From positions 1 through 32,649 of the forward strand of contig CAIKTR010000050.1 in NCBI GenBank assembly GCA_903830425.1: a stretch of DNA of 32,649 bases. Reading direction: 5' to 3'. The position numbers and the translations under genes were made by a program. Positions 1,807 to 19,144 of this stretch are shown piece after piece. The stretch is from an uncultured Opitutia bacterium (GTDB lineage Bacteria; Verrucomicrobiota; Verrucomicrobiia; Opitutales; Opitutaceae). The notes below the pieces were generated by a model that searched no databases, was not told the origin of the DNA, and worked only from the letters and a program-made list of their open reading frames with translations. Position 1 is the first letter of the stretch, and every line of letters starts with the position of its first letter.

Positions 1807-1861
1807 GGCGGATTTTCGTTTGCATCAGGCTTTGCTGCGCCCACGGTTTTCCAATCCCAAA

Positions 1862-2620
1862 ATGCTCAACGCCGAACGAAAGCCCGTGACGGGAAAGCGG
1901 GTGCAGCTGATGGCCACGTGCCTGTGCGACGCCTTCTACGACGACGTCGCCCGGGCGACGGTGGAGGTGCTGGAGCATGCCGGCTGCACGATCGACTTTC
2001 CCGAGGGGCAGACCTGCTGCGGCCAGCCGGCGCTGAACGGCGGCGACTGGGCGGCGGCGCGCAAGGTGGTGCGGCACACGGTGCGCACCTTCGCCGGCGA
2101 GGATCCCGTGATCCTGCCCTCCGGCTCCTGCGCCGCGATGCTGTTCCACGGCGCGCCGCTGGCCTTCGAGCACGAGCCCGACCTCGCCGCGGTCGAGGCG
2201 CTGGGGCGCCGGACCTGGGAGCTGCTGGACTTTCTGGTCAACGGCCTCGGCCTCACCTCCTGGCCGGGCCGCTACGACGCCCGGATCGCCCTGCACCGGG
2301 CGTGCCACGCGCGCGGCACGGGCAGCCTGCCGGCGGCGCTGACGCTGCTGCGGTCGATCCGCGGCGTGGAGGTGGTCGAGTTCGGCGAGCTGGAGCAGTG
2401 CTGCGGCTTCGGCGGGACGTTTTCGGTGGCCTTCCCCCATATCTCGCAGGCGATGGGCGACCTGAAGCTCGAGCACATCCGCGCCGCCCGGCCCGACCTG
2501 CTCGCCTCCGTGGACATGAGCTGCCTGATGCACCTGAGCGGTCGCGCCGCGCACGAGGGCCAGCCGATCAAGATCCGGCACGTCGCCCAGATCCTCCGCG
2601 ACGCGCTGGCGTCCGCCTGA
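1862..2620 (+). CDS. lutA: Lactate utilization protein A (Cys-rich Fe-S oxidoreductase subunit)
   Basis: LutA is one of three subunits of the LutABC complex that oxidizes L-lactate to pyruvate. The 252-aa protein has two copies of the cysteine-rich CCG module: the first with MATCLCDAFYDD then QTCCGQPALNGG and SGSCAAML, the second with HRACHARGTGS then LEQCCGFGGTFSV and MSCLMH. These modules bind Fe-S clusters in LutA/GlpC/HdrB-type proteins. The frame is open upstream to a GTG at 1793, but that start would overlap rhaB, and the family begins just before the KVQLFATCLVD-like segment, so I prefer the ATG at 1862. No clear Shine-Dalgarno is visible at either. It leads an operon with lutB (6 bp gap) and lutC. 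Confidence 0.9.
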   Translation: MLNAERKPVTGKRVQLMATCLCDAFYDDVARATVEVLEHAGCTIDFPEGQTCCGQPALNGGDWAAARKVVRHTVRTFAGEDPVILPSGSCAAMLFHGAPLAFEHEPDLAAVEALGRRTWELLDFLVNGLGLTSWPGRYDARIALHRACHARGTGSLPAALTLLRSIRGVEVVEFGELEQCCGFGGTFSVAFPHISQAMGDLKLEHIRAARPDLLASVDMSCLMHLSGRAAHEGQPIKIRHVAQILRDALASA

Positions 2621-2626
2621 ACCGCC

Positions 2627-4021
2627 ATGGCCCAGCAGCTCATCGACCAGTTTGCCGCCCGCCTGCCCGCCGACCGGCGGGCCGCGGTGTACCAGAGCAC
2701 CAAAACCACGCACGAGAAGCGCACGGCGATGCTCTTCGACCAGTTTGCCGAGCCTCACCGGCTCCGCGCCCTCGCGGGCGGCATCAAGCAGCACGTGCTG
2801 GAAAACCTCGACACCCTGCTGCCGGCGGTCGAGGCGAAGCTGCAGGCCAACGGGGCCCAGGTCCACTGGGCCGCGACCGCCGAGGCCGCCTGCGCCGCGG
2901 TCCTCCGCATCATGCAGGCGCGCGGCGCGACCAAGCTGGTCAAGGCCAAGACCATGGTCAGCGAGGAGATCGCGCTGGAGCACTTCCTGGCGGCGCACGG
3001 CATCGAGGCGCTCGAGACCGACCTCGGCGAGTTCATCGTCCAGCTCGACCACGACCGCCCGAGCCACATCGTCCGCCCGATCATCCACAAGAACCGCCGC
3101 GAGATCGCCCAGAGCTTCGAGCGCCACGGCCTCGGCGCCTACGACGACGACCCGCAGACGATCACCCGGCGGGCGCGGCAGTTCCTGCGGCAGAAATACC
3201 TCCAGGCCGACGTCGGCCTGACCGGCGCCAACTTCGTCTCGGTCGAGAGCGGCCGGCTCGTGCTGGTGACCAACGAGGGCAACTCCCGCTTCAGCCTGGC
3301 CGCGCCGAAGTGCCACATCGCGCTCGTCGGCATCGAGAAGCTGGTCCCCCGCGACCGCGACCTCGGCCTGCTGCTCAACCTCCTCGCCCGCTCCGCCACC
3401 GCCCAGCAGCTCACGGTCTACACCGAGTTCATCACCGGCCCGAAGGCCGCGACCCAGCCCGACGGCCCGGAGGAGCTGCACGTCATCTTCGTGGACAACG
3501 GCCGCACCGACGTGCTCGCCTCCGAGTGCCGGGCGATCCTCCGCTGCATCCGCTGCGGCGCGTGCATGAACGTCTGCCCGGTCTACCGCCAGGCCAGCGG
3601 CCACGCCTACCGCAGCGTCTACCCCGGCCCGGTCGGGGCCGTGCTCTCGCCCCTCCTCGCCGGGAAGAAATTCCCCGAGCTGGCCGACCTGCCCAAGGCC
3701 TCCTCGCTCTGCGGCGCGTGCCACGAGGTCTGCCCGGTCGACATCCCGATCCCCGACCTGCTCCTCCGGCTCCGCGACCAGGGCAAGCGCGCCGGCGCCC
3801 CGCTCGCCGCCGCCGGCACGCCGCCGATGGGCGCCTGGGCGCTGCTCGCCTCGCAGCCCGCCGCGTGGAAGGCCGCGCTGCTCGGCGGCAAAATCATCAA
3901 CTACCTCCCCACCAAGCTCCTCCCGGTGCCCCCGCTGCGCGCCTGGGAAAAGAGCCGCACGCTGCCGGAGTGGCGCGGCGGCGAGTTCCGCCGCTGGCTG
4001 CGGCACCGGACCACCCCATGA
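2627..4021 (+). CDS. lutB: Lactate utilization protein B (LUD domain plus 2x[4Fe-4S])
   Basis: LutB is the central Fe-S subunit of the L-lactate dehydrogenase complex. The 464-aa protein has an N-terminal LUD domain (about residues 65-290, including LTGANFVSVESG) followed by a ferredoxin-like pair of cluster motifs: C307, C310, C313, C317 (CxxCxxCxxxCP) and C362, C365, C369 (CxxCxxxCP). The C-terminal 90 residues include a short hydrophobic stretch near GAWALLASQPAAW. Length matches B. subtilis LutB and E. coli YkgF. The stop overlaps the lutC start (ATGA), so translation is probably coupled. No lactate permease LutP is next to it; the transporter downstream is of the OPT family. Confidence 0.93.
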   Translation: MAQQLIDQFAARLPADRRAAVYQSTKTTHEKRTAMLFDQFAEPHRLRALAGGIKQHVLENLDTLLPAVEAKLQANGAQVHWAATAEAACAAVLRIMQARGATKLVKAKTMVSEEIALEHFLAAHGIEALETDLGEFIVQLDHDRPSHIVRPIIHKNRREIAQSFERHGLGAYDDDPQTITRRARQFLRQKYLQADVGLTGANFVSVESGRLVLVTNEGNSRFSLAAPKCHIALVGIEKLVPRDRDLGLLLNLLARSATAQQLTVYTEFITGPKAATQPDGPEELHVIFVDNGRTDVLASECRAILRCIRCGACMNVCPVYRQASGHAYRSVYPGPVGAVLSPLLAGKKFPELADLPKASSLCGACHEVCPVDIPIPDLLLRLRDQGKRAGAPLAAAGTPPMGAWALLASQPAAWKAALLGGKIINYLPTKLLPVPPLRAWEKSRTLPEWRGGEFRRWLRHRTTP

Positions 4022-4629
4022 GCTCCGACCGCGACACGATTCTCGCCGGGGTGCGCGCCGCGCTGGCGCCGCTGGCCGCCCGCGCCCCGCTGCCGGACTG
4101 GGACCGCGACCTCGTCCGCGTCCGCACCCTCCAGCCCGCCGCCGACCCCTGGGCGCGGTTCGCCGCCCGCCTCACGGCGGTCAACGGCACGCCGCTCACC
4201 GCGGTGGCCGACCTGGTCGCGCTGCTGGAGAAAAACCAGTGGCGGCGCGGCTACTGCGATCCGGCGCTGTGGCCGCAGTTCCAGGGGGCCTTCCCCGCCC
4301 ATTTCACGGTCGAGACGGCGTTCGACCGCACGCGGGTGGACGACTACGACTTCGGCCTGACCGCGGCGGCCGGCGCGATCGCCGAGACGGGCACGCTGAT
4401 CCTGACCGACCGGGGGACCTCCTCGCGGCTGGCCGCGCTCGCGCCGTGGGTGCACATCGCGGTGCTGCGCCGGGAGCAGATTTACGCGGACATTTCCGCC
4501 GCCCTGGCGGCGCTGCCGGACGACCCGAACGTCATCTGGGTCACCGGCCCCTCCAAGACGGCCGACGTCGAGGGCATCCTAATCGAGGGGGTGCACGGCC
4601 CGGGCGTGCAGGTGGCGCTGCTCCAGTAG
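4018..4629 (+). CDS. lutC: Lactate utilization protein C (LUD domain)
   Basis: LutC is the third subunit of the LutABC lactate oxidation complex. The 203-aa protein is a single LUD domain. The conserved core is DYDFGLTAAAGAIAETGT, followed by LAALAPWVHIAVL and, at the end, VTGPSKTADVEGILIEGVHG, which is the family's C-terminal signature. The ATG at 4018 overlaps the lutB stop by four bases, which fixes the start. A much longer frame is open upstream of it but is a GC-driven artefact. Confidence 0.93.
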   Translation: MSSDRDTILAGVRAALAPLAARAPLPDWDRDLVRVRTLQPAADPWARFAARLTAVNGTPLTAVADLVALLEKNQWRRGYCDPALWPQFQGAFPAHFTVETAFDRTRVDDYDFGLTAAAGAIAETGTLILTDRGTSSRLAALAPWVHIAVLRREQIYADISAALAALPDDPNVIWVTGPSKTADVEGILIEGVHGPGVQVALLQ

Positions 4630-4706
4630 CCGCCGGCGAATCCGCCGCCGGGGCGATTCCCGCATTGAGTCGCGCCCCGGCCCCGCAATAGTTCCCGCCC
4701 AACCCC

Positions 4707-7013
4707 ATGCCTTCCCCCTCCGCCCCCCCGGTCGAACCCTACATTGCGCCGGAAACCTCGATGCGGGAGTTCACGGTGCGCGCCGTGCTCACCGGCGCCA
4801 TCCTCGGCCTGATCTTCGGCGCCTCCTCGCTCTACCTCGTCCTCAAGGTCGGCCTCACCGTCAGCGCCTCGATCCCGGTGGCCGTGATCTCGCTCGCGAT
4901 GTTCCGCGGCTGGTCGAAGGTCGGCGGGCGCGACGCCACCATCCTGGAGAACAACATCACGCAGACCGCCGGCTCCGCCGGCGAGTCGCTGGCGTTCGGC
5001 CTCGGCGTGACCATGCCGGCGATCCTCATCCTCGGCTTCGACCTCGAGCTGACGCGCGTCATGCTGGTCGCGGTGCTCGGCGGCCTGCTCGGCATCCTCA
5101 TGATGATCCCGCTGCGCCAGGCGCTGATCGTGAAGGAGCACGGCGTGCTCAAGTATCCCGAGGGCACGGCCTGCGCCGCCGTGCTCAAGGCCGGGGCCTC
5201 GCCCGCCTGCCGCGCCGCCGCCGCGCCCGCCGCCCAGGCCGAGATGCGCGCCGCCGCCGCCGCGGGCCTCGGCCAGTCGCCCGGCGCCCGCGTCATCTTC
5301 ACCGGCTTCGGGCTCGGCCTGCTCTACAAGACCCTCAACGTCGCCGCCAAGGGCTGGAAGGACGTCCCGGAGAAGGTCTTCGGCGCGCCCTTCAAGGCCG
5401 GCTCGATCAGCGTGGAGATCTCCCCCGAGCTGCTCGGCGTCGGCTACATCATCGGCCCGCGCATCGCCTCGATCATGTGCGCCGGCGGCGTGCTCAGCTA
5501 CCTCGTGCTCATCCCGCTGATCAAGTTCTTCGGCGACGCGCTGCCCGGCCCGCTGGCGCCGGGCCTCATCCCGATCTCCGCCATGGGCCCCCACCAGATC
5601 CGCGGCGCCTACATCCTCTACATCGGCGCGGGCGCGGTGGCCGCCGGCGGCATCATCAGCCTGGTGCAGTCGCTGCCCACCATCTGGCACGGGCTCCGCG
5701 GCGGCCTGCGCGACCTCGGCCTCTCCGCCGGCGCCCCGGCGGGCGCCCCGCCGCGCACCGAGCAGGACCTCTCGATGAAGTTCGTCGGCATCGGCATCGT
5801 CGGGATCATCGCCGCCGTCGTGCTCGCGCCCTCCCTGCACATGAACCTGCTCGGCGCCCTCCTCATCGTGCTCTTCGGCTTCCTCTTCGTCACCGTCTCC
5901 TCCCGGCTGACCGGCGAGATCGGGTCGTCCTCCAACCCCATCTCGGGCATGACGGTCGCCACCCTGCTCTTCACCTGCCTGATCTTCCTGCTGGTGGGCT
6001 GGACCGGCGGCACCTACTACGTCACCGCGCTCTCCGTCGGCGCCATCGTCTGCATCGCCGCGTCGAACGGCGGCTCGACCTCGCAGGACCTCAAGACCGG
6101 GCACCTGCTCGGGGCGACCCCCAAGTACCAGCAGCTCGCGATCATCGCCGGCTCCCTGCTCTCCGCGACCCTGCTCGGGCCGATCCTGCTCAAGCTCAAC
6201 GACGCGGCCACGGTCTACGTGCCCGCCGCCCAGGTCGCGCCCGCCGGCCTCCGCACCGACGTGCGGCCGCTGGCCACGACCGAGACCCTCCGCGGCCCGC
6301 AGGCGCGCGACGACGCGGCCACCTACCACGTCTGGCAGAAGACCGACGAGGTGGGCGGCCCCGCCGGCCGCTACCTGGTGAACGACGCCGGCCAGGCGGT
6401 CTGGCTGGTCGATCCCGGCATCAACGGCGCCTACAACACCCGCCCGGACGGCACGACCGTCCGCAAGTTCGACGCGCCCAAGGCCACCCTGATGTCGTAC
6501 ATCATCAAGGGCATCCTCGACCGCCAGCTGCCCTGGGCGCTGGTGCTGCTCGGCGTGATGATCGCGCTGACGCTGCAGCTGTCCTTTCTCCCCGCGCTGG
6601 CCTTTGCCGTCGGGGTCTACCTGCCGCTCTCGTCCTCGAGCCCCATCTTCATCGGCGGGTTCATCCGCTGGCTGGTGGACCGGAAGGCCCGGCAGCAGCC
6701 CTCGCACGCGCACCTGACCGAGGACCAGCTGGCCGCGGAGAGCGACAAGAGCTCCGGCGTGCTGCTGGCCTCCGGCTACATTGCGGGCGGTGCGATCGCC
6801 GGCATCATCATCGCGTTCCTGGCCGGCGCCCTCGACCGCGTCGACGCCGCGCTCACCGCCTGGTCGACGGCGCACAACCCGTTCTTCGAGGGGCCGCACT
6901 CCGATGCGCTCTCCCTGCTGCCGTTCGTCCTGATCTGCGGCCTGCTTTATTTCGTCGGCCGGGAGCAGCTGCTGGTGCCGCGGCCGGGCGGGCGCGACGG
7001 CCCGGCCGGCTGA
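4707..7013 (+). CDS. OPT-family oligopeptide/metal-chelate transporter
   Basis: This is an integral inner-membrane secondary transporter of the OPT family. The 768-aa protein begins with YIAPETSMREFTVRAVLTGA and continues with many hydrophobic segments. Family signatures include EGTACAAVLKAG, SSNPISGMTVATLLF and GGSTSQDLKTGHLLGATP. An alanine-rich soluble insertion (about residues 170-195) and a hydrophilic loop (about 510-590, containing GPAGRYLVNDAGQ) interrupt the membrane region; the second may be a folded extracytoplasmic loop. Prokaryotic OPT substrates include oligopeptides, but most members are uncharacterized. It starts 77 bp after lutC on the same strand, so co-transcription is possible. 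It converges with the GH38 gene, leaving 33 bp between stops. Confidence 0.9.
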   Translation: MPSPSAPPVEPYIAPETSMREFTVRAVLTGAILGLIFGASSLYLVLKVGLTVSASIPVAVISLAMFRGWSKVGGRDATILENNITQTAGSAGESLAFGLGVTMPAILILGFDLELTRVMLVAVLGGLLGILMMIPLRQALIVKEHGVLKYPEGTACAAVLKAGASPACRAAAAPAAQAEMRAAAAAGLGQSPGARVIFTGFGLGLLYKTLNVAAKGWKDVPEKVFGAPFKAGSISVEISPELLGVGYIIGPRIASIMCAGGVLSYLVLIPLIKFFGDALPGPLAPGLIPISAMGPHQIRGAYILYIGAGAVAAGGIISLVQSLPTIWHGLRGGLRDLGLSAGAPAGAPPRTEQDLSMKFVGIGIVGIIAAVVLAPSLHMNLLGALLIVLFGFLFVTVSSRLTGEIGSSSNPISGMTVATLLFTCLIFLLVGWTGGTYYVTALSVGAIVCIAASNGGSTSQDLKTGHLLGATPKYQQLAIIAGSLLSATLLGPILLKLNDAATVYVPAAQVAPAGLRTDVRPLATTETLRGPQARDDAATYHVWQKTDEVGGPAGRYLVNDAGQAVWLVDPGINGAYNTRPDGTTVRKFDAPKATLMSYIIKGILDRQLPWALVLLGVMIALTLQLSFLPALAFAVGVYLPLSSSSPIFIGGFIRWLVDRKARQQPSHAHLTEDQLAAESDKSSGVLLASGYIAGGAIAGIIIAFLAGALDRVDAALTAWSTAHNPFFEGPHSDALSLLPFVLICGLLYFVGREQLLVPRPGGRDGPAG

Positions 7014-9569: not shown

Positions 9570-10373
9570 TCACACGGGCTCGTTGATGACCGGATTGGTC
9601 AGCGTGCCGATGCGCTCGATCACGATGCTCACGGTGTCGCCGGGCTGGAGGAAGCGGGGCGGCTGGCGGGCGAAGCCGACGCCGTGCGGGGTGCCGGTGA
9701 GGATGACGGTGCCGGGCAGGAGGGTCTTGCTGCCGCTGAGGAACTCGATCAGCGCCGGCACGTCGAAGCACATGTCGCTGGTGTGCGAGTCCTGGAGGGT
9801 CTCGCCGTTGACGAGGGTCTGGATCGCGAGGTTGTTCGGGTCGGGGATCTCGTCGCGGGTCACGAGCACCGGCCCGAGCGGGCAGAAGGTGTCGAAGCTC
9901 TTGGCCTGGCAGAACTGGCCGCCGCCCCAGCGCCGCTGCCAGTCGCGGGCGGAGACGTCGTTGGCGCAGGTGTAGCCGAGCACGTAGTCGAGGGCCTCGG
10001 CCCGGCGCACGTTCTTGCAGCGCCGGCCGATCACCACCGCCAGCTCGCACTCGTAGTCGACCTCGTGGCTGGCGAGGTGGCGCGGGAGCTCGATCGGGTC
10101 GCCGGGATGCTGCAGCGAGTTGAGGCTCTTGAGGAAGAGCATCGGCTGGGCGGGCACGCCCTTGCCGCCCTCTGCGGCGTGCCGCTGGTAGTTGAGGCCG
10201 ATCGCGAGGATGCCGGAGGGCGTGAGCGGCGCGAGGCGCTTGCCGGGGACGACGACGCGGTCGGTGACGTGAAAGTCGCCGAGGAGGTCGCCGGCGATTT
10301 CGCGGGCGGAGCCGTCGGCCTGGAGCGCGGCGTAGGCCGGGCCGGCGGGGGTCAGGTGGCGGAGGATCTTCAT
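9570..10373 (-). CDS. Fumarylacetoacetate hydrolase-family protein
   Basis: FAH-family enzymes hydrolyse or decarboxylate 2-keto or 2,4-diketo acids using a divalent metal. The 267-aa protein has GILAIGLNYQRHA, the metal-ligand region DYECELAVVIGRR (ExE), YTCANDVSARDWQ and a C-terminal TGTPHGVGFARQPP. These are the usual landmarks of the bacterial FAH fold. The frame is open far upstream, but MKILRH at 10373 is the natural start, since the extra N-terminus is a low-complexity Pro/Arg string overlapping the AraC gene. Possible roles include 2-keto-3-deoxy or 2,4-diketo-3-deoxy sugar acid hydrolysis in a non-phosphorylative sugar pathway, suggested by the sugar-related neighbours; sequence alone does not decide it. 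The gap to AraC is 64 bp. Confidence 0.88.
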   Translation of the reverse strand: MKILRHLTPAGPAYAALQADGSAREIAGDLLGDFHVTDRVVVPGKRLAPLTPSGILAIGLNYQRHAAEGGKGVPAQPMLFLKSLNSLQHPGDPIELPRHLASHEVDYECELAVVIGRRCKNVRRAEALDYVLGYTCANDVSARDWQRRWGGGQFCQAKSFDTFCPLGPVLVTRDEIPDPNNLAIQTLVNGETLQDSHTSDMCFDVPALIEFLSGSKTLLPGTVILTGTPHGVGFARQPPRFLQPGDTVSIVIERIGTLTNPVINEPV

Positions 10374-10437: not shown

Positions 10438-11268
10438 CTACGGGTCGCCGCCGGCGGCCCAGGCCCCGGGGGGCCGGCCGTGGCGGGCGCGGAACCGCCG
10501 GTAGAAGTGCGAGAGGTCGCCGTAGCCGCTGGAAAACGCCGCGCCGAGCACCGAGTGCCGGCCCGCGCGCAGCAGCCGGGCGGCATGGGTGAGCCGCCGC
10601 TCGGTCAGCTCCGCCAGGAAGGTGCGGCCCGTCACGGTGCGGAACAGGGCGCTGAAGTGGCGCCGCGACATCGCGGCCCGGGCGCAGGCGCGCTCCAGGC
10701 TCCAGGGCTCGTAGAACGTTTCCGCCAGCTCCCGGGCCACCGCCTCGACCCGCCGCCGGGCGTGGTCCGCGGTGGGCTCGGCGGGCCGCCGGGCGAGCGA
10801 CACGAGGATCGTGCCCGCCGCGGCCCCGATGGCGGTCTCGCGCCCGACCTGCGCGCCGGCCTGCTCCACGATCGCCGCGCGCCAGAGCCCCTCGAAGCGG
10901 TGGCCCCAGACCGGGCCCGGGCGCAGGCCCACGCCGCGCCCGCCCGTCAGCCGGCGCCAGAGCTCCGCCAGGCCGGGCTCGCGCCGCAGGAACGCCTGCG
11001 AGAAGCACACCAGCAGCAGCGTCGGCGGCGCCGTGTCCGTGATCCGGTGCCGGTCGCCCGCGGGGATGCAGAGCACGGAGCCGGCGGGGGCGGGCACCGG
11101 CGGGCGGCCCCCGGAGCCGGCGCAGGTCACGCGCCCGTGCAGCACGTAGAGGAGCTTGTGGAAGCGGTCGGCCCGCTCCGCCATGCGAAAGCCCGGCCCG
11201 TGCACGCTCTCGGCGAAGACCACGCCGTGGGCCGGCAGGGTGACGGGGATGGGGCGGGAGACGGGCAT
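10438..11268 (-). CDS. AraC-family transcriptional regulator
   Basis: The 276-aa protein has an N-terminal cupin-like sensing domain (about residues 15-130, with KLLYVLHGRVTCAG and GSVLCIPAGDRHRI) and a C-terminal AraC double helix-turn-helix (about 180-270). Recognizable HTH parts are CARAAMSRRHFSALFR and the hallmark second motif SSGYGDLSHFYRRFRARHG. The ATG at 11268 is chosen; a GTG at 11358 would add 30 poorly conserved residues. It heads the minus-strand run with the FAH-family enzyme and GH38, and is divergent from the one-carbon cassette at 11381, so it may control either or both. Confidence 0.9.
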   Translation of the reverse strand: MPVSRPIPVTLPAHGVVFAESVHGPGFRMAERADRFHKLLYVLHGRVTCAGSGGRPPVPAPAGSVLCIPAGDRHRITDTAPPTLLLVCFSQAFLRREPGLAELWRRLTGGRGVGLRPGPVWGHRFEGLWRAAIVEQAGAQVGRETAIGAAAGTILVSLARRPAEPTADHARRRVEAVARELAETFYEPWSLERACARAAMSRRHFSALFRTVTGRTFLAELTERRLTHAARLLRAGRHSVLGAAFSSGYGDLSHFYRRFRARHGRPPGAWAAGGDP

Positions 11269-11380
11269 GGGCGGCGGCGGGCGGAGTGCCCGATCTGCCA
11301 ATCGAGACAAGCCCGATGCGCCAAGACGGGGCAAGGCAAAACCGGTAGGCTGATTCACCCTTTAGCCCAACCCCGTCCGC

Positions 11381-12439
11381 ATGCCCCGCTCCCCCCATCC
11401 CGTGGCCACCCGCGCCGAAGTCGAGACCGTGCTGCGGGGCGGCGCCCCGCGCCCGGTGCCGCTCTTCCTGCCGGCGATCTACGAGCACAAGGCCTGGTTC
11501 ATCGGCCGCACGCCGTCGGCGATCGCGCGCGACGCCGACCTGCTCACGCGGGCCCTGCTGGCCGAGTTCGAGGCGGTCGGGCCGGACGCCCTCACGGTCG
11601 GCGTCGATGTCTACAACCTCGAGGCGGAGGCGGTCGGCTGCGCCGTGACGTTCTACGAGGGCGACGACCCGAGCATCCCGGGCATCAAGCCCGGCGACCA
11701 CCTCCTCCGGGCGGGCGACGACCTCCGCGCGGCCCCGCTGCCCAATCCGCTCCAGGCCGGCCGCATGCCGGTGAACCTCGAGGCCGCGCGCCGCGTCCGC
11801 GCCGCCCTGGGCGCCGACTTCTGGCTGCGCGGCGCCATCTCCGGGCCGTTCTCGCTCGCCATCAGCCTGATGGGGGCGGACGCCCTCTACCTCGCCTGCC
11901 TCGACGACCCCGCGTGGGTGCAGCAGCTGCTCGCCTACGCCGGCCGCGTGATCAAGGAGTTCGGCAAGGGCTACCGCGACGCCGGCGCCGAGCTGATCGT
12001 GTTCGACTCCCAGGCCTCGCCCGACCTGCTGTCGCCGCGGATGTACGAGGAGCTGGTCCTGCCGATCACCCAGGACCTCGCCGCCTGGGCCGCCGCGCAG
12101 GGGATGCGCGACCTGCCGCTCGTCATCGGGGGCAACACCACGCGGATCGCCGGGCTGCTCGCCCGCACCGGCTGCAACAACCTGCTCTGCGACTTCACCG
12201 CCGACTTTGCCGTCTGGTCCGAGACCTGCCGCACGGCCGGCCGGGCCCTGCGCAGCAACCTCTCGCCCCGCCTGCTCGAGACGGCGCCGCCCGACGAGGT
12301 CTACGCCGCCGCCGCCCGCGAGGTGGCCCGCGGCAAGGACCTGCCCGGCTTCATCATGGGCACCGCCGTCGTCCCGTTCGGCACCCCCACGGCCAACGTG
12401 CTCGCGGTGAAGCGCGCCTGCCTCGACGCCCGTGCCTGA
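11381..12439 (+). CDS. Uroporphyrinogen decarboxylase-fold (MtaA/UroD-like) protein
   Basis: The 352-aa protein has a UroD-type TIM-barrel fold; members are either haem-pathway decarboxylases or corrinoid/THF-linked methyltransferases such as MtaA and MtbA. Family features are LTVGVDVYNLEAEAVGC near the N-terminus, GADFWLRGAISGPFSLAISL in the middle and GGNTTRIAGLLARTGCNNLL towards the end. True UroD motifs for haem synthesis are absent, so it is not HemE. The position where MtaA-type enzymes have a zinc-binding HxCG reads VIGG here, so a classical zinc thiolate site is not evident. It is the first gene of a four-gene plus-strand run and ends seven bases before the ATG of the MetF-like gene. 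Methyl-transfer or methyl-sensing in that pathway is an inference. Confidence 0.8.
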   Translation: MPRSPHPVATRAEVETVLRGGAPRPVPLFLPAIYEHKAWFIGRTPSAIARDADLLTRALLAEFEAVGPDALTVGVDVYNLEAEAVGCAVTFYEGDDPSIPGIKPGDHLLRAGDDLRAAPLPNPLQAGRMPVNLEAARRVRAALGADFWLRGAISGPFSLAISLMGADALYLACLDDPAWVQQLLAYAGRVIKEFGKGYRDAGAELIVFDSQASPDLLSPRMYEELVLPITQDLAAWAAAQGMRDLPLVIGGNTTRIAGLLARTGCNNLLCDFTADFAVWSETCRTAGRALRSNLSPRLLETAPPDEVYAAAAREVARGKDLPGFIMGTAVVPFGTPTANVLAVKRACLDARA

Positions 12440-12446
12440 TTCTCCC

Positions 12447-14033
12447 ATGCGCACCCTGCAGGACCGACTGACCCAGTCGGCCGACTTCCTCCTCGGGGTC
12501 GAACTCGTCTCGACCCGCGGCACGACCGCGGAGCCGCGCGCGGCGAAGACCAGCGCCTTCGCCCGCGACCTCGCGGGCTACGCCGGGCTCGACTGGGTCT
12601 CGATCACGGACAACGCCGGCGGCAACCCGATGCTGTCGCCGCTCGCCCTGGCCCGCCCGCTGCGCGCCGCCGGCCGGGAGACGGTGATCCATCTTTCCTG
12701 CAAGGATTTCAACCGCAACGGGCTCGAGAGCGAGGCCTGGCACCTCGCCGACCAGGGGTTCCGCAACATCCTCGCGCTGAGCGGCGACTACCCGGGGACC
12801 GGGGTCGGCGGCGGCGCCAAGCCGGTCTTTGACACCGACTCCGTCGGGCTGCTCACGCTGCTCGGCCGGCTGAACGCGGGGCTGGACGTCACCCGCCCGG
12901 GGGCGAAGCAGCCGGCGCGGCTCGCCCCGCAGCAGTTCTACCCGGGCGCCGTCGTGACCAATTTCAAGCTGCACGAGAACGAGGTCGTGCCGCAGCTGCT
13001 CAAGGCCGAGCGCAAGCTCGCCGCCGGCGCGCGCTGGTTCATCAACCAGATCGGCTACGATTCGCGCAAGGTGCACGAGCTCATCGCCTGGTTCCGCCGC
13101 CGCGGCCACGGCGCCGTGCCGCTCCTCGGCAACGTGTTCGTCCTCAACCCCGGCGCCGCCCGCGTCTTCCGCGCCCAGCGCATCCCCGGCGTCAGCCTCT
13201 CCGACGAGCTTGCCGCCGTCTGCGAGCGCCACGCCGCGAGCCCCGACCAGGGCAAGGCCTTCTTCCTCGAGCTCGCCGCCCGGCAGATCGCCATCTACCG
13301 CGGCCTCGGCTACCGCGGCGCCTACCTCGGCGGGGTGCACACCCTGGCCGACGTGGACCGCGTGCTCGCGCTCGAGCGCAGCTTCGCGCCCGACGACTGG
13401 CGGGGTTTCGCCCGCGAGATCCGGTTCTCGCGGCCGGGCGAGTTCTTTTATTTCGCCGAGGATCCGGCCACCGGCCTCGCCCACCCCGACGAGCTGCACC
13501 CGGCCTACGCCGCCTCCCTCCCGGCGCGGCCGGCGAGCCGCCACGTCACCTACTCCTACCGCTTCTCCAAGTTCACCCACGGCCTCCTCTTCACGCCCGG
13601 CCGGGGCCTGTGGAACCTTGGCGCGAAGCTCTGCCGCAGCGCGGCCGATTCCCGCCAGGGCCCGCCCGGCATGCACGCGGTCGAGCACCTCGGGAAAAGC
13701 CTGATGTTCGGCTGCCAGGACTGCGGCGACTGCTCGCTGCCCGACATCGCGTTCCTCTGCCCGGAGTCCTCCTGCGCCAAGAACCAGCGCAACGGCCCCT
13801 GCGGCGGCACGCGCGACGGCCGGTGCGAGGTCGAGGACTTCGACTGCATCTGGTCCCGCGCCTACGACCGCCTCAAGCACGAGGGCCGCACGGAGGAGCT
13901 CCTCGCCCACGCCCCCGTCATCCAGGACCAGACCCTCCGCGGCACCTCCAGCTGGGCCAACACCTGGCTCGGGCGCGACCACCTCGCCGCCCGCCCGCCC
14001 GCCGCCCCCGTTTCTCCGCCCGCCCAACCCTAG
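12447..14033 (+). CDS. metF: Methylenetetrahydrofolate reductase, MetF-MetV-like fusion
   Basis: The enzyme interconverts 5,10-methylene-THF and 5-methyl-THF. The N-terminal roughly 300 residues are a MetF barrel: LGVELVSTRGT, ITDNAGGNPMLSPL, VIHLSCKDFNRNGLESE and NILALSGDYP are all typical. The C-terminal part (about 370-480) has the cysteine-rich signature of MetV, the partner subunit of acetogen MetVF: GCQDCGDCSL, FLCPESSCAKN, GPCGGTRDGRCEVEDFDC and WSRAYDRLK. Here both halves are in one chain. Length is 528 aa against roughly 300 for a simple MetF. A GTG at 12432 overlapping the previous gene is an alternative start. With LigM-like protein next, it may run in the oxidative direction to recycle methyl-THF. 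Confidence 0.88.
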   Translation: MRTLQDRLTQSADFLLGVELVSTRGTTAEPRAAKTSAFARDLAGYAGLDWVSITDNAGGNPMLSPLALARPLRAAGRETVIHLSCKDFNRNGLESEAWHLADQGFRNILALSGDYPGTGVGGGAKPVFDTDSVGLLTLLGRLNAGLDVTRPGAKQPARLAPQQFYPGAVVTNFKLHENEVVPQLLKAERKLAAGARWFINQIGYDSRKVHELIAWFRRRGHGAVPLLGNVFVLNPGAARVFRAQRIPGVSLSDELAAVCERHAASPDQGKAFFLELAARQIAIYRGLGYRGAYLGGVHTLADVDRVLALERSFAPDDWRGFAREIRFSRPGEFFYFAEDPATGLAHPDELHPAYAASLPARPASRHVTYSYRFSKFTHGLLFTPGRGLWNLGAKLCRSAADSRQGPPGMHAVEHLGKSLMFGCQDCGDCSLPDIAFLCPESSCAKNQRNGPCGGTRDGRCEVEDFDCIWSRAYDRLKHEGRTEELLAHAPVIQDQTLRGTSSWANTWLGRDHLAARPPAAPVSPPAQP

Positions 14034-14053
14034 GTCCCCCCTCCGCGTTTTTT

Positions 14054-15406
14054 ATGAACGAACCCAAGCCCGCCTCCCTCGAGGCCAAACTCCAACAGTA
14101 TCCCAGCCCCGTCGAAATGCTGCGCCACGCGCCGGTCGGCGGGTACCAGTTCCCGTTCGCGCCCGAATTCACCAACTGGCGCGACGAGCAGGAGGCCTGG
14201 CAGCACAGCGTCGTCCTCTTCGACCAGTCCTACCACATGAAGGACGTCTATTTCGAGGGGCCGGATGTGAAGCGCCTGCTGTCCGACGTCGCCGTCAACA
14301 CGATGAAGAACTTCGGCGCCAACCGCGCCAAGCAGATCGTGACCTGCAACCCCGACGGCCACGTCATCGGCGACGCCATCCTCTTCGGCCACAGCGAGGA
14401 GAAGGTCAGCGTGGTCGGGCGCCCCTCCGTGCCGAACTGGATCGAGTTCCAGGCCCTCCGCGGGAACTACGCGGTCAAGGTCACGCGCGACGAGCGCACC
14501 GTCAGCAACCAGGGCCGCCGCCTGATCTACCGCTACCAGATCCAGGGGCCCAACGCCCTGGAGCTCATCAAGAGCGTGCACGAGGGTCCGTTCCCGGAGA
14601 TCCCGTTCTTCCACCTCGGGGACCTGAAGATCGCCGGCCGCCCGGTGCGCGCGCTCAACCACAACATGTCCCGCATGGGCGGGCTCGAGCTGCACGGCCC
14701 GGTGGACGACGGCGAGGCGGTCCTGAACGCCCTGCTCGCGGCCGGCCCGAAGTTCGGCCTGCGGCGCGGCGGCAGCCGGGCCTACTCGACGGTCTCGCCC
14801 GAGAGCGGCTGGATCCCGTCCCCCATGCCCGCCATTTATGCCGGGGACCAGATGAAGCCCTACCGCGAGTGGCTCCGCGCCGACGGCTTCGAGGCCAACG
14901 CCTCCCTCGGCGGCAGCTTTTATTCGCCCGCGATCGAGGATTATTACCAGACCCCGTGGGATCTGGGCTACGGGCGGCACGTCAAGTTCGACCACGACTT
15001 CATCGGGCGCGCCGCGCTCGAAAAGCTCGCGGACCAGCCGCATCGCCGCAAAGTCTGGCTGCGTTGGAACAACGAGGACGTCCTGCGGATTGATGCCAGC
15101 CAGCTCGGGCGGGGCGAGCGCTACAAGTACATGGAAATGCCGAATGCCTACTATTCGATCCTGCCCTTTGACCAGGTGCTGGCGGGCGGCCGCCTGGCCG
15201 GCCTGTCCACCTACACGGTTTACACGACCAACGTGCGCGGGTGGTTCTCGCTCGCCATGATTGACGAGAGCGTGGCCGATGGCGCCGCGGTGTCGGTCGT
15301 CTGGGGCGAGCAGGACGGCGGCTCCCGGAAGCCCAGCGTCGAGCGGCACGTGCAGACCGAGGTCCGCGCCACGGTTTCCTACCAGCGCCTCAATGAGCAA
15401 ACCTGA
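14054..15406 (+). CDS. LigM/DesA-like THF-dependent O-demethylase (GcvT family)
   Basis: Family members transfer a methyl group from a donor (methoxylated aromatics for LigM and DesA, DMSP for DmdA) to THF. The 450-aa protein begins with SPVEMLRHAPVGGYQFP and PEFTNWRDEQEAW, then VLFDQSYHM (residues 54-62), the layout I know from LigM. LigM is reported to depend on Tyr31, His60 and Tyr247; here Tyr31, His61 and Tyr244 (in RAYSTVSPESGW) fall at nearly the same positions, though an alignment is needed. GRHVKFDHDFIGRAALEKL is the GcvT-like C-terminal part. In Sphingobium SYK-6, ligM is linked to metF, and the same pairing is seen here. The actual methyl donor is unknown. Glycine cleavage T protein is less likely, since these are not GcvT's own motifs and the protein is longer. 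Confidence 0.87.
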   Translation: MNEPKPASLEAKLQQYPSPVEMLRHAPVGGYQFPFAPEFTNWRDEQEAWQHSVVLFDQSYHMKDVYFEGPDVKRLLSDVAVNTMKNFGANRAKQIVTCNPDGHVIGDAILFGHSEEKVSVVGRPSVPNWIEFQALRGNYAVKVTRDERTVSNQGRRLIYRYQIQGPNALELIKSVHEGPFPEIPFFHLGDLKIAGRPVRALNHNMSRMGGLELHGPVDDGEAVLNALLAAGPKFGLRRGGSRAYSTVSPESGWIPSPMPAIYAGDQMKPYREWLRADGFEANASLGGSFYSPAIEDYYQTPWDLGYGRHVKFDHDFIGRAALEKLADQPHRRKVWLRWNNEDVLRIDASQLGRGERYKYMEMPNAYYSILPFDQVLAGGRLAGLSTYTVYTTNVRGWFSLAMIDESVADGAAVSVVWGEQDGGSRKPSVERHVQTEVRATVSYQRLNEQT

Positions 15407-15528
15407 ACCGGCCCGCGGCGGGCCCCGCCACCCTTGATTCTGCCCGGCCACCGGCGCGACCTCCGCCCGGCCCGCCGCCGCGGCCGCCCGTACCCGGGCG
15501 GCGCGCCGGCGCCGGAGGGGGCGGCGCC

Positions 15529-16242
15529 ATGACGTTCACCGAGGTCAACCAGCACCCCGTGGTGCGCGAGGCGGAGTTCAAGCGCCTCCTCGGCGTCCCG
15601 GCGGACTTCGCCTTCACGCCGCTGCTGGCGGAGAACGCGGCCTGGGCGCGCGCCTGGTACGCGGCCCACGGCCGGCCGTGGCTGTGGGCGCGCCCGGCGG
15701 GCAGCTGCGCGGTGACGGGGGAGGTGGTGACGCTGGACGCGCAGGACCTGACGAGCCGCGAGCTGGCGCGGCGCTTCCGGGCGGCGGACCGCGCGGTGGT
15801 GGTGGCCGCGAGTGCGGGCGCCGAGGCGGAGGCCGAGGCGGCCCGGTGCTGGGAGAACGACGAGCCGGACCGGTATTTTTTCATGGAGACCTACGCCTCG
15901 GCGGTGGTGGAGGCCCTGATTGCCGAGGCCGGGGCGCGGCTCTGCTCCTGGGCGGACGGGCTGGGGGCGGTGCTGCTGCCGCACTACAGCCCGGGTTACC
16001 CCGGCTGGTCGGTGGGCGAGCAGGCGCGGGTCTTCTCGCTGCTGACGGCGACGGGCGAGCCGCCCGGCCCGCTGGAGGTGATGGCGTCCGGCATGCTGCG
16101 GCCGAAGAAGTCGCAGCTCGCGGTGTTTGCCCTGGCGCCGGCGGGAAGCGCCGGCGCGGCCCCGGCCGACCTGGTGCCCTGCCACGCCTGCGCCCTCCGG
16201 CACTGCGCCTTCCGGCGCGCGGCCTCGGCGGTCGCGCCCTGA
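15529..16242 (+). CDS. Stand-alone protein resembling the methionine synthase (B12) reactivation domain
   Basis: The 237-aa protein resembles the activation domain of cobalamin-dependent MetH as found in stand-alone proteins of anaerobes. Supporting parts are YFFMETYASAVVEALIAEAG, then HYSPGYPGWSVGEQARVF (from residue 152), and SGMLRPKKSQLAVFAL, which matches the end of that domain where SAM and the corrinoid meet. A Cys cluster, C218, C221 and C226 in CHACALRHC, closes the protein and could bind a metal. A GGAGGGG-like Shine-Dalgarno lies about 8-10 bases before the ATG. It follows the LigM-like gene by 122 bp. The implied role is reductive reactivation of a corrinoid methyltransferase encoded elsewhere; no B12-binding domain is present in this window. 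Confidence 0.68.
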   Translation: MTFTEVNQHPVVREAEFKRLLGVPADFAFTPLLAENAAWARAWYAAHGRPWLWARPAGSCAVTGEVVTLDAQDLTSRELARRFRAADRAVVVAASAGAEAEAEAARCWENDEPDRYFFMETYASAVVEALIAEAGARLCSWADGLGAVLLPHYSPGYPGWSVGEQARVFSLLTATGEPPGPLEVMASGMLRPKKSQLAVFALAPAGSAGAAPADLVPCHACALRHCAFRRAASAVAP

Positions 16243-16276
16243 CCCGCTCCCGCGGCCCCGGCGCGCGGCGGCCGGC

Positions 16277-19144
16277 TCAGCTGGACTCGAGGCCCGCGCA
16301 GGAGCAGAAGAGGTGGCGGTCGCCGTAGACGTTGTCCACGCGGCCGACCGCGGGCCAGAACTTGGCCGCGCGCGTGTGCCGGTCGGGGAACGCCGCGGTC
16401 TCCCGCGAGTAGGGGTGCTCCCAGGCGGTGGCGCAGACCGCCGCGGCGGTGTGCGGCGCGTGCTTCAGCGGGTTGTTCGCCGGGTCGGACGCCCCGGTGG
16501 CCACCGCCGTCATCTCGCCGTGGATGGCGATGAGGGCGTCGCAAAACCGGTCGAGCTCCGCCTTGGTCTCGCTCTCGGTCGGCTCGATCATGAGCGTGCC
16601 GGGGACGGGGAAGGACATGGTCGGCGCGTGGTAGCCGTAGTCGATCAGCCGCTTGGCGACGTCCTCGACCTCGAGCCCGTGCTTTTTCCACGGGCGGAAC
16701 TCGAGGATGCACTCGTGGGCGACGAAGCCGCCGGTGCCGCGGTAGAGGACGGGGAAGCAGGCCTCGAGCCGGCGGGCGATGTAGTTGGCGTTGAGGATGG
16801 CGGTCTGGGTCGCGGCGGTGAGGCCGTCCGGGCCCATCATGCGGAGGTACATCCAGGAGATCACGAGGACGCTGGCGCTGCCGTAGGGGGCGGCGGCGAC
16901 GGCGCCGACCCGGGTGGCGGCCGTCCCGGCGGGGGCGAACACGTGGGAGGGGAGGAAGGGCGCGAGGTGCGGGGCGACGGCGATGGGGCCGACGCCCGGG
17001 CCGCCGCCGCCGTGCGGGATGGCGAAGGTCTTGTGCAGGTTGAGGTGGCAGACGTCGGCGCCGAGGAAGCCGGGCGAGGTCAGCCCGACCTGCGCGTTCA
17101 TGTTGGCGCCGTCCATGTACACCTGCCCGCCGTGGGCGTGGATCACGGCGCAGAGGTCCTTGATGCTGCCCTCGAACACGCCATGGGTGGAGGGGTAGGT
17201 GACCATGAGCGCCGCGAGCTCGCGGGCGTGGGTTGCGGCCTTGGCGGTGAGGTCGGCGACGTCGATGTTGCCCTGGGCGTCGCAGGCGACGGGCACGACC
17301 TGGAAGCCGCCCATGGCGGCGCTGGCGGGGTTGGTGCCGTGGGCGGAGGTGGGGATGAGGCAGATGTGGCGGTGGCCCTCGCCGCGGGACTCGTGGTAGG
17401 CGCGGATGGCGAGCAGGCCGGCGTATTCGCCCTGAGAGCCGGCGTTGGGCTGGAGGGAGACGGCGGCGAGGCCGGTGATCTCGGCGAGCCAGGCCTCGAG
17501 GTCGCGGCAGAGCCGGGCGTAGCCGCGGGCCTGCGCGGCGGGCGCGAAGGGGTGCAGGCGGCTGAACTCGGGCCAGGACACCGGCAGCATCTCGCTGGTG
17601 GCGTTGAGCTTCATCGTGCAGGAGCCGAGGGAGATCATCGAGTGGCAGAGCGAGAGGTCCTTGGCCTCGAGCCGCCGGAGGTAGCGCAGCATCTCGTGCT
17701 CGGTGTGGTGGCGGTGGAAGACCGCCGCCGTCAGATAGGCCGAGGTGCGCGCATGCGGCGCGGCGAAGTCCGCCGCGACGCCGTCGGCCGCGCCGAGGGG
17801 CGCCGCGCCGGCCGCGGCGCCGAAGCAGCCGAGGATCGCCGCCACGTCCTCGCGGGTGGTGGTCTCGTCGAGGGAGACGCCGACGGTGCCGGCGTCGATC
17901 CGGCGGAGGTTGTAGCGCCGGGCGGCGGCGGCGGCGTGGACGCGCTCGGCGTCGACGCCGCGGACGGTGAGGGTGTCGAAGACGGGCTCGGCGTTCACCC
18001 GGGCGCCGAGGGCGGCGAGGCCGCGGGCGAGCAGGCCGGTGAGGAGCTTCGTGCGGCGGGCGATCTCCCGCAGGCCCTCGGGGCCGTGGTAGACGGCGTA
18101 CATGGACGCCAGGACGGCGAGGAGCACCTGGGCGGTGCAGATGTTGGACGTGGCCTTGTCGCGGCGGATGTGCTGCTCGCGGGTGCCGAGGGCGAGGCGC
18201 AGGGCGGGGTGGCCCTGGGCGTCCTTGGAGACGCCGACGAGGCGCCCGGGCATCTGGCGCTTGAAGTCGTTCCGGGTGGCGAGGAAGCCGGCGTGCGGGC
18301 CGCCGAAGCCGAGGGGCACGCCGAAGCGCTGGGCGGAGCCGACGGCGACGTCGGCACCGAACTCGCCGGGGGCGCGCAGCAGGGTGAGGGCGAGCAGGTC
18401 GGTGGCGACGATGGCGTAGGCGCCGGCGGCGTGGGCGGCGGCGAAGCAGGCGGCGAAGTCATGCACGCTGCCGGTCGTGTCGGGATACTGCACCAGCACC
18501 CCGCAGCAGCCGGCGTCGGGCCGGAACGTGCGCCAGTCGCCCACGCGGACGGCGAGGCCGAGGGGCCGGGCGCGCGTCCGGACAATGTCGATGGTCTGCG
18601 GGTGGCAGGCGGCGTCGACGAGGAAGTTCCGCTCGGCGGCCGGATCGGCGTCCTTGAGCCGGTGGCACATCATCATGGCCTCGGCGGCGGCGGTGCCCTC
18701 GTCGAGCATCGAGGCGTTGGCGATCTCCAGCCCGGTCAGGTCGCAGACCATCGTCTGGAAGTTCAGCAGGGCCTCGAGCCGCCCCTGGGAGATCTCGGCC
18801 TGGTACGGGGTGTAGGCGGTGTACCAGCCGGGATTCTCCAGGATGTTCCGCTGGATGACCGCGGGCACGAGCGTGTCGTAGTAGCCGAGGCCGATCTGGC
18901 TGCGGAAGACCTGGTTTTCGCCGGCGATGGCGCGCAGCTCGGCCAGCGCGGCGCTTTCGCCCACGGCGGCGGGGAGCTGCAGCGGCCCGCGGCGCAGGTG
19001 CGCCGGCACGGTGGCGTCGATCAGGGCCGTCAGCGACGGTTGGCCGAGGAGCTGGAGCATGTCGGCGGTGTCGGCCGCGCTGTCGCCGTGGTGGCGGCGC
19101 GCAAATGTGTCGAGGGGGGCGAGGGGGTCGCGGGACGAAGCCAT
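16277..19144 (-). CDS. gcvP: Glycine dehydrogenase (decarboxylating), P protein
   Basis: GcvP decarboxylates glycine with PLP and passes the aminomethyl group to the lipoyl H protein, feeding methylene-THF. The 955-aa single-chain form matches the usual length of about 955 aa. The N-terminal half has [19 protein letters not shown] and [11 protein letters not shown]; the C-terminal half has [32 protein letters not shown] and [19 protein letters not shown], in which Lys705 is the expected PLP Schiff-base residue. The ATG at 19144 starts [18 protein letters not shown], a normal GcvP beginning. gcvT and gcvH are not next to it. The 108-bp space shared with nth is too short for a tandem glycine riboswitch and shows none. 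Function connects to the one-carbon cassette next door, though on the opposite strand. Confidence 0.97.

Follow-up and report, generated by a model that had tools for sequence, protein, structure and literature searches.

Two described kinds of demethylation system are closest to the locus reported here. In the folate-dependent kind, according to the accessible parts of PMC6888825, the characterised LigM and DesA enzymes use vanillate, 3-O-methylgallate, and syringate as substrates, and Sphingobium SYK-6 carries a ligM-metF-ligH operon. In the corrinoid-dependent kind, O-demethylases of the UroD superfamily act on methoxylated aromatics, as described in the accessible parts of PMC13222342 and PMC8630106. 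The subject of this report is a four-gene operon at positions 11381-16242 of a stretch of DNA from an uncultured Opitutia bacterium; the whole stretch, 32,649 nucleotides long and called the window here, is contig C50 of draft genome G000 (254 contigs, 95% complete). The genes encode a UroD-superfamily protein (UroD), a MetF-MetV fusion (MetFV), a LigM-like protein, and a stand-alone MetH-activation-domain protein (ACT). The operon joins parts of the two known demethylation systems, as a variant of them, and no description of it was found in the literature searched, which was judged mostly from titles.

We read this locus as an AraC-controlled methoxyl-harvesting operon that would derive from a corrinoid O-demethylation operon and in which UroD and ACT would provide a second entry for methyl groups. 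With its functions assigned from sequence, we give this reading a probability of roughly 0.58.

Within what the accessible parts of PMC6888825 describe, the operon resembles the SYK-6 system in having a LigM/DesA-family protein and a MetF partner, by which methyl-tetrahydrofolate (methyl-THF) would enter one-carbon (C1) metabolism. Unlike the SYK-6 ligM operon, it has MetF fused to MetV, AraC rather than MarR-type control, UroD and ACT as additional members, Phe in place of Tyr31, and a LigM-like protein that scores below the NCBIfam equivalog cut-offs. A UroD-superfamily protein is what it shares with the corrinoid O-demethylases having a UroD-type MT1 (MtvB, OdmB, and VdmB; MtoABCD), as far as the excerpts of PMC13222342 and PMC8630106 go, whereas the corrinoid protein, MT2, and RACo of those systems are absent from the window operon, which has LigM instead. 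A group of related operons, called type I below, matches these corrinoid systems further by including a corrinoid protein, a pterin-binding MT2, and RACo, and differs from their description in the same excerpts by ACT, an amidohydrolase, and two small unnamed proteins.

Proteins of the Operon

A first-pass annotation of the window had proposed four same-direction genes with short gaps, and this is borne out: UroD, MetFV, the LigM-like protein, and ACT are encoded by four intact open reading frames on the plus strand, all with ATG starts and with intergenic gaps of 7, 20, and 122 bp in that order. MetFV (12447-14033, + strand) combines a methylene-THF reductase with a DUF5981 domain (PF02219 and PF12225), and an alternative GTG start at 12432 would make it overlap UroD.

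The LigM-like protein (14054-15406, + strand) is a probable THF-dependent O-demethylase. It carries the GCV_T fold, matches the solved LigM structure 5tl4 with an E value of 4e-127, and obtains NCBIfam scores of 563 bits for DesA (cut-off 800), 517 bits for LigM (cut-off 580), and 68 bits for GcvT. Falling below both curated equivalog cut-offs, it is a family member but neither LigM nor DesA proper. The scores agree with its earlier placement in the LigM/DesA family, linked to a MetF-type enzyme, and rule out GcvT; the trees made contain no GcvT rows. A longer open reading frame from 13610 is a mechanical extension, and the sole other LigM-like match in the same genome, at 27% on contig C38, is taken as GcvT. 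Alignment of Tyr31, His60, and Tyr247, whose catalytic roles in LigM we assume, had been proposed as a check. With the numbering mapped by hand via the 5tl4 alignment, His60 and Tyr247 are kept, as H61 in 81/81 and Y244 in 80/81 aligned LigM relatives (window included), but Tyr31 is Phe in the window. Nothing on the roles of these three residues is found in PMC8091115.

UroD (11381-12439, + strand) matches PF01208 with 128 bits and NCBIfam MtaA/CmuA with 106 bits, which does not reach the cut-off of 235. Fold and sequence searches both return 4ay7/4ay8 as best matches (the predicted model has a pLDDT of 67, moderate confidence), and the protein groups with the UroD of type I operons. It is a member of the superfamily and a probable corrinoid-dependent methyltransferase of the MT1 type. 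Two other assignments were rejected. As for a true uroporphyrinogen decarboxylase, 4ay7 is closer (E 9e-21) than the HemE structures (best E 3e-13). Soluble coenzyme M-type thiol methyltransferases (MtaA/MtbA) bind zinc through His-x-Cys and a C-terminal Cys, and UroD has I, G, and T at the H, C, and C positions of 4ay7, which are presumably its zinc ligands.

ACT (15529-16242, + strand) ends in a C-terminal CxxCxxxxC motif, has no Pfam or NCBIfam match, PF02965 included, and has relatives in the type I and type II clusters described below. Its predicted model (pLDDT 80, pTM 0.80) matches MetH activation domains in fold, best of all that of Thermotoga maritima TM0269 (1j6r; Z 17.6, root-mean-square deviation 2.5 over 191 residues); other MetH activation domains give Z 12.9-14.4, and the next folds give Z of 5.6 or less. 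TM0269 is, we assume, a separate gene as well; unlike it, ACT sits with methyl-transfer genes, and elsewhere in the genome, on C133, lies the gene for a MetH that has an activation domain of its own (PF02965, 391 bits). Selenocysteine was considered and rejected for ACT: the sole in-frame TGA, seen in three genomes, looks like the normal end of a shorter ACT, whose reading frame had been carried on into the next gene, which overlaps it.

The MetH-activation fold of ACT, together with the occurrence of thiol methyltransferases (4ay7) within the UroD superfamily, would also suit a role for UroD and ACT in making methionine or repairing MetH with methyl-THF from LigM. Such a role is very improbable, given the I, G, and T that UroD has in place of the assumed zinc ligands and the activation domain that the organism's own MetH already possesses. 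UroD and ACT are real, if unusual, partners of LigM, as had been supposed.

Distribution of the Cassette in Relatives

An alignment of eight LigM sequences, searched against the named genome collection, yielded 386 relatives, the best 80 of which were read; those close to the window carry the names Opitutae, Opitutaceae, and Verrucomicrobia, and the window is accordingly assigned to the Opitutaceae. A long MetFV lies directly upstream of LigM in 16 of these 80 loci, and an AraC match stands beside the pair in all 16. Among these 16, UroD is present in eight (L060-L064, L067, L072, L112), ACT in three (L062, L064, L067), and PurU in seven (L069, L076, L079, L080, L083, L094, L117); L061 and L082, whose contigs end ~200 bp past LigM, were left out of the PurU count, and L062, L063, L064, and L112, which are the same contigs as in G010, G009, G007, and G011, were each counted once. 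UroD and PurU never occur together in the judged loci, and no judged locus is without both. By its domains (Formyl_trans_N plus an ACT domain), PurU is a formyl-THF deformylase, and a paralogue (44-46%) is found elsewhere in 11/12 genomes of the window's genus. The constant core in relatives is thus a divergent AraC with MetFV-LigM, and UroD and ACT are variable.

Recurrence is above chance: L062, L064, and L067 have the complete four-gene set as well, and five further genomes (L060, L061, L063, L072, L112) have UroD-MetFV-LigM. Synteny, which the first-pass annotation had wanted checked, exists, but the four genes are no fixed unit, and the failure to co-occur that it had named as contrary evidence is partly seen, because UroD and ACT vary. 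The first-pass annotation also missed that AraC and an operator at 11284-11328 belong to the system and that PurU takes part in sister operons without UroD.

A full LigM is present in 8/12 genomes of the genus (window genome counted); in G001, G003, and G005, LigM is a 64-65% relative in another gene context. A MetV-MetF fusion of reverse domain order, with MetV first (Pfam-confirmed in L085), lies near LigM in 13/80 loci (L066, L068, L071, L074, L077, L078, L085, L087, L088, L092, L096, L097, L099). Streptomyces coffeae (L098, 7694-11347) and Geodermatophilus sabuli (L104, 4644-11347) have a LigM relative close to FAH and to an intradiol dioxygenase of the catechol type, the latter Pfam-confirmed in L098 and named in L104 by the likeness of the protein start.

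Corrinoid Operons of Type I and Type II

A search with an ACT alignment found relatives in 25/372 genomes of the window's order, and 18 new stretches were read in addition to five earlier ones; the domain names given for both types rest on one or a few examples each. Nine loci are of type I (L056, L059, L175, L176, L178-L181, and L177), with AraC divergent from UroD, corrinoid protein, MetFV, pterin-binding MT2, amidohydrolase, RACo, ACT, and two small unnamed proteins, in this order. AraC adjoins 8/9 of these operons; L177 is without an AraC match, a corrinoid-protein match, and the small proteins, and the MT2 of L175, missed by the gene caller, was detected by tblastn. Type II comprises L057, L058, L166-L172, and L174, all ten with RACo, ACT, and a different UroD that is 22-24% identical to that of the window; the corrinoid protein is found in 9/10, MT2 in 7/10, the amidohydrolase in 6/10, and MetFV in 5/10, some stretches ending inside the cluster. 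L173, L182, and L183 hold partial or distant clusters. In both types, most clusters have two small protein families (~155 and ~113 residues; no Pfam or NCBIfam match) together with RACo and ACT, e.g., at 8857-9662 of L056, and in most clusters of type II the larger one forms a fusion with ACT.

In quick trees, the LigM operons together with L055 form one clade each for MetFV (SH-aLRT 97), AraC (99), and UroD (93), and each of these clades joins some type I rows first (L177 with support 87; L175 and L176 with 92 and 81). This nesting suggests, short of proof, that the operon may have originated within type I. The first-pass annotation had overlooked this probable origin of UroD and ACT, both of which have close counterparts in the type I corrinoid operon, from which the window operon seems to derive. 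The UroD-bearing state requires three changes on the MetFV tree, four on the AraC tree, three on the GcvP tree (bootstrap 3-4), and three and two on two LigM trees. Most simply, LigM would have taken the place of the corrinoid protein, MT2, and RACo in a type I operon, and the lines with PurU would then have lost UroD and ACT repeatedly. Past PurU, L094 retains a protein related to the small protein DUF155 (40% over 146), and G004 (L055) presents another state, UroD-MetFV-amidohydrolase-ACT without LigM.

A Common Predicted AraC Operator

The AraC-family regulator (10438-11268, - strand; HTH_18 and AraC-binding domains) is divergent from the operon. Twenty-five spacers between AraC and the first gene were aligned (nine UroD+LigM, L055, seven LigM-PurU, and eight type I), and they have in common an element made of two direct half-sites, GCCCGAnnnGCCAA, whose starts are 23 bp apart; this element corresponds to the 45-bp operator at 11284-11328 (+ strand) in the window. 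The 8-mer GCCAAGAC occurs in 20/25 spacers, compared to a top count of 5 for any 8-mer in 50 shuffles. A 45-column matrix, run over all loci (4.54 million bases with both strands counted, many of them overlapping), gave 36 matches above 12 bits, and it gave none in a Markov control (maximum 6.4). These matches are the 25 training sites, five duplicate stretches (L032-L035, L164), and six untrained loci (L082, L093, L070, L068, L078, L183), five of them between AraC and the first gene; the match of L183, with AraC on the same strand, is loose. The L093 operator (50.9 bits) heads a LigM of a second lineage with a short MetF. When matrices were cross-trained, with site positions taken from the joint matrix, type I sites alone recovered 17/17 other spacers above 15.7, and the LigM operons with L055 recovered 5/8 spacers of type I with scores exceeding the control maximum (11.0).

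Conservation supports 11284-11328 as a predicted AraC site. That the same type of regulator precedes a corrinoid system and also two lineages of LigM points to inducing substrates of a common class, and the trees, the gene content, and this common operator together make it probable that LigM displaced the corrinoid module under one switch. It is possible, though doubtful, that one AraC and its operator govern interchangeable demethylation systems (type I corrinoid, LigM with UroD, LigM with PurU, and the second LigM lineage) and that the window operon is a dual-route demethylase; if so, a folate route that tolerates oxygen and a corrinoid route that is sensitive to it would act on the same substrate.

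Probable Corrinoid Supply in Trans and Selection on UroD and ACT

Contig C55 of the same genome encodes relatives of the corrinoid protein, MT2, and activase that the window cluster lacks. It carries a stand-alone corrinoid protein and RACo together with a pterin-binding MT2, FTHFS, a second MetFV, and further UroD-like proteins (two Pfam-confirmed, the rest by BLAST only). This fits the earlier proposal in which methyl-THF is either oxidised by MetFV or handed to a corrinoid enzyme at another locus. The C55 corrinoid protein shares 89% identity with that of G004, and one of at least 86% identity is present in 8/8 other UroD-bearing genomes (10/10 with the own genome and G004), in the UroD-negative L082, and in 0/8 LigM-PurU genomes (L065 counted in), L069 having a 51% one. 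Among five remaining genomes, L068 and L070 have 60-64% corrinoid proteins and three have MetH-like matches only. A genome-wide search found UroD in 0/15 UroD-negative genomes (L065, L069, L076, L079, L080, L082, L083, L094, L117, G001, G002, G003, G005, G006, G008) and recovered 4/4 positives; L065, cut upstream by a contig end, was counted as negative by this search. In G004, a type-I-like MT2 (63%) lies inside a UroD-rich supercluster, and UroD, MetFV, the amidohydrolase, and ACT lie at the cassette locus, suggesting that cassette and supercluster share parts. From this co-occurrence, UroD and ACT probably constitute a second, corrinoid-dependent entry with carriers borrowed in trans.

Such superclusters, at C55 of G000 (L184, L185), C18 of G004 (L186, L187), and C22 of G007 (L188), each contain one corrinoid protein, RACo, DUF1638, MT2, and several UroD-like proteins, that of G000 additionally a MetFV paralogue and FTHFS. 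With several UroD-family proteins, one corrinoid protein, and one activase, the C55 supercluster resembles the Type 1 mlp gene clusters in the accessible parts of PMC10418091; those are reported from obligate anaerobes and with probable zinc ligands, and C55 adds MetFV, a pterin-binding MT2, and FTHFS.

Substitution rates bear on whether UroD and ACT still matter. They could be leftovers of the old corrinoid operon, now without importance, in an otherwise ordinary LigM-MetF operon: in cis the corrinoid protein, MT2, and RACo have disappeared, the seven PurU loci and L082 among the 16 MetFV-LigM loci lack UroD, and ACT is missing from half of the readable UroD+LigM loci. In the four closest pairs per gene, however, the ratio of nonsynonymous to synonymous substitution rates (dN/dS) is 0.23-0.35 for UroD and 0.32-0.39 for ACT, within the range of FAH (0.27-0.60), though above LigM (0.10-0.16) and MetFV (0.13-0.26); both genes are under purifying selection, weaker than that on LigM. 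UroD is also kept in 10/11 genomes having both the cassette operon and the corrinoid protein in trans (exception L082). We consider the leftover explanation quite unlikely and prefer a second entry that is still in use.

Proposed Mechanism and Substrate

In the proposed mechanism, AraC would bind at 11284-11328, sense a methylated substrate or its product, and switch the operon on. The LigM-like protein, by its family, would transfer the methyl group of an O-methyl substrate, likeliest a methoxylated aromatic, to THF, and MetFV would convert methyl-THF to methylene-THF for C1 metabolism, the C1 unit leaving via PurU or via FTHFS on C55. In the ancestor, as the type I gene order suggests, the methyl group would have passed from UroD (MT1) to the corrinoid protein, the pterin-binding MT2, and THF, while RACo and ACT kept the cobalt in its active state. 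In cis, LigM would have replaced the corrinoid protein, MT2, and RACo, and UroD and ACT probably still work as a second entry with the corrinoid protein, RACo, and MT2 of C55.

Our best guess for the substrate is a methoxylated aromatic, by analogy with the characterised LigM and DesA (PMC6888825, accessible parts), which count against a sugar. L098 and L104, where LigM lies near FAH, belong to the group that is sister to the Opitutales LigM clade (support 93), the intradiol dioxygenase being confirmed in L098; this too points away from a sugar. An O-methylated sugar acid or sugar is nevertheless conceivable, since an O-methyl sugar acid is allowed by the Tyr31-to-Phe change and by the sister clusters of type II, which have GH115 and UxuA. 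UxuA is found in 8/10 and GH115 alpha-glucuronidase in 4/10 type II clusters, pointing to 4-O-methylglucuronate; a gene for a GH38 mannosidase is found close to the window operon, and LigB is missing from the genus. The type II UroD, however, is a different protein from that of the window, and we regard a sugar substrate as unlikely.

The type II clusters themselves are a strong candidate, on their gene content, for 4-O-methylglucuronate demethylation, for which no pathway was found in the literature searched, as judged from titles. Several of these loci also have a LacI-type regulator, a homocysteine S-methyltransferase, and SDR, all three Pfam-confirmed in L168.

Several points weigh against a methoxyl-harvesting operon of type I origin with a second entry. 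ACT is absent from 4/8 readable UroD+LigM loci (L060, L063, L072, L112; L061 is cut), and the window's LigM-like protein has Phe at the Tyr31 position, which is also Phe in 55/81 aligned LigM relatives. The support for nesting comes in part from a UroD tree with very long outgroup branches, and the MetFV tree is compatible with a single origin of the UroD-bearing state. The operator cross-test failed for 3/8 type I spacers (L175, L176, L178), and the matrix scan gave no match in the supercluster stretches L184-L188. The corrinoid protein is present without UroD in G001, G003, G005, and L082, and genome completeness is mostly not given for the UroD and corrinoid counts, so that absences may be gaps. 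Raw Fisher values, which ignore kinship, are 4e-4 for UroD with the corrinoid protein and 1.6e-4 for UroD with PurU; they are not taken as significant because kinship leaves two independent pairs on the LigM tree, 1.9 on average in the expected direction (sign test p 0.5). As regards the substrate, no gene for it is fixed beside the operon in the loci read, type I likewise, and LigB ring-cleavage enzymes are found in 0/12 genus genomes, with other ring-cleavage routes, PF00775 included, not searched; the ring is thus probably not opened by the LigB route.

Neighbouring Features

An FAH-family hydrolase gene (9570-10373, - strand; PF01557) adjoins AraC and does so in 14/16 MetFV-LigM loci, the exceptions being L080 and L082 (the latter cut by a contig end). 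Its NCBIfam scores are ambiguous, 205 for the HpaG type and 204 for a rhamnonate-pathway hydrolase, both below cut-off. Downstream, GcvP (16277-19144, - strand) runs opposite to the operon. Upstream, genes at 379-7013 resemble by eye those for rhamnulokinase, LutABC, and an OPT transporter. A pattern scan of 11150-16400 found no promoter-like sites (0.2 expected) and four terminator-like sites, all within MetFV or LigM, which against an expectation of 1.9 (standard deviation 1.5) are uninformative.

Implications

Within a single operon, one methyl-transfer chemistry has apparently been replaced by another with regulator and operator retained, and the common operator is for this reason a direct handle on the substrate, that is, on what AraC senses. 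LigM-type enzymes of Verrucomicrobia would thereby be tied to corrinoid demethylation, and the type II clusters offer a testable candidate for the bacterial demethylation of xylan-derived 4-O-methylglucuronate.

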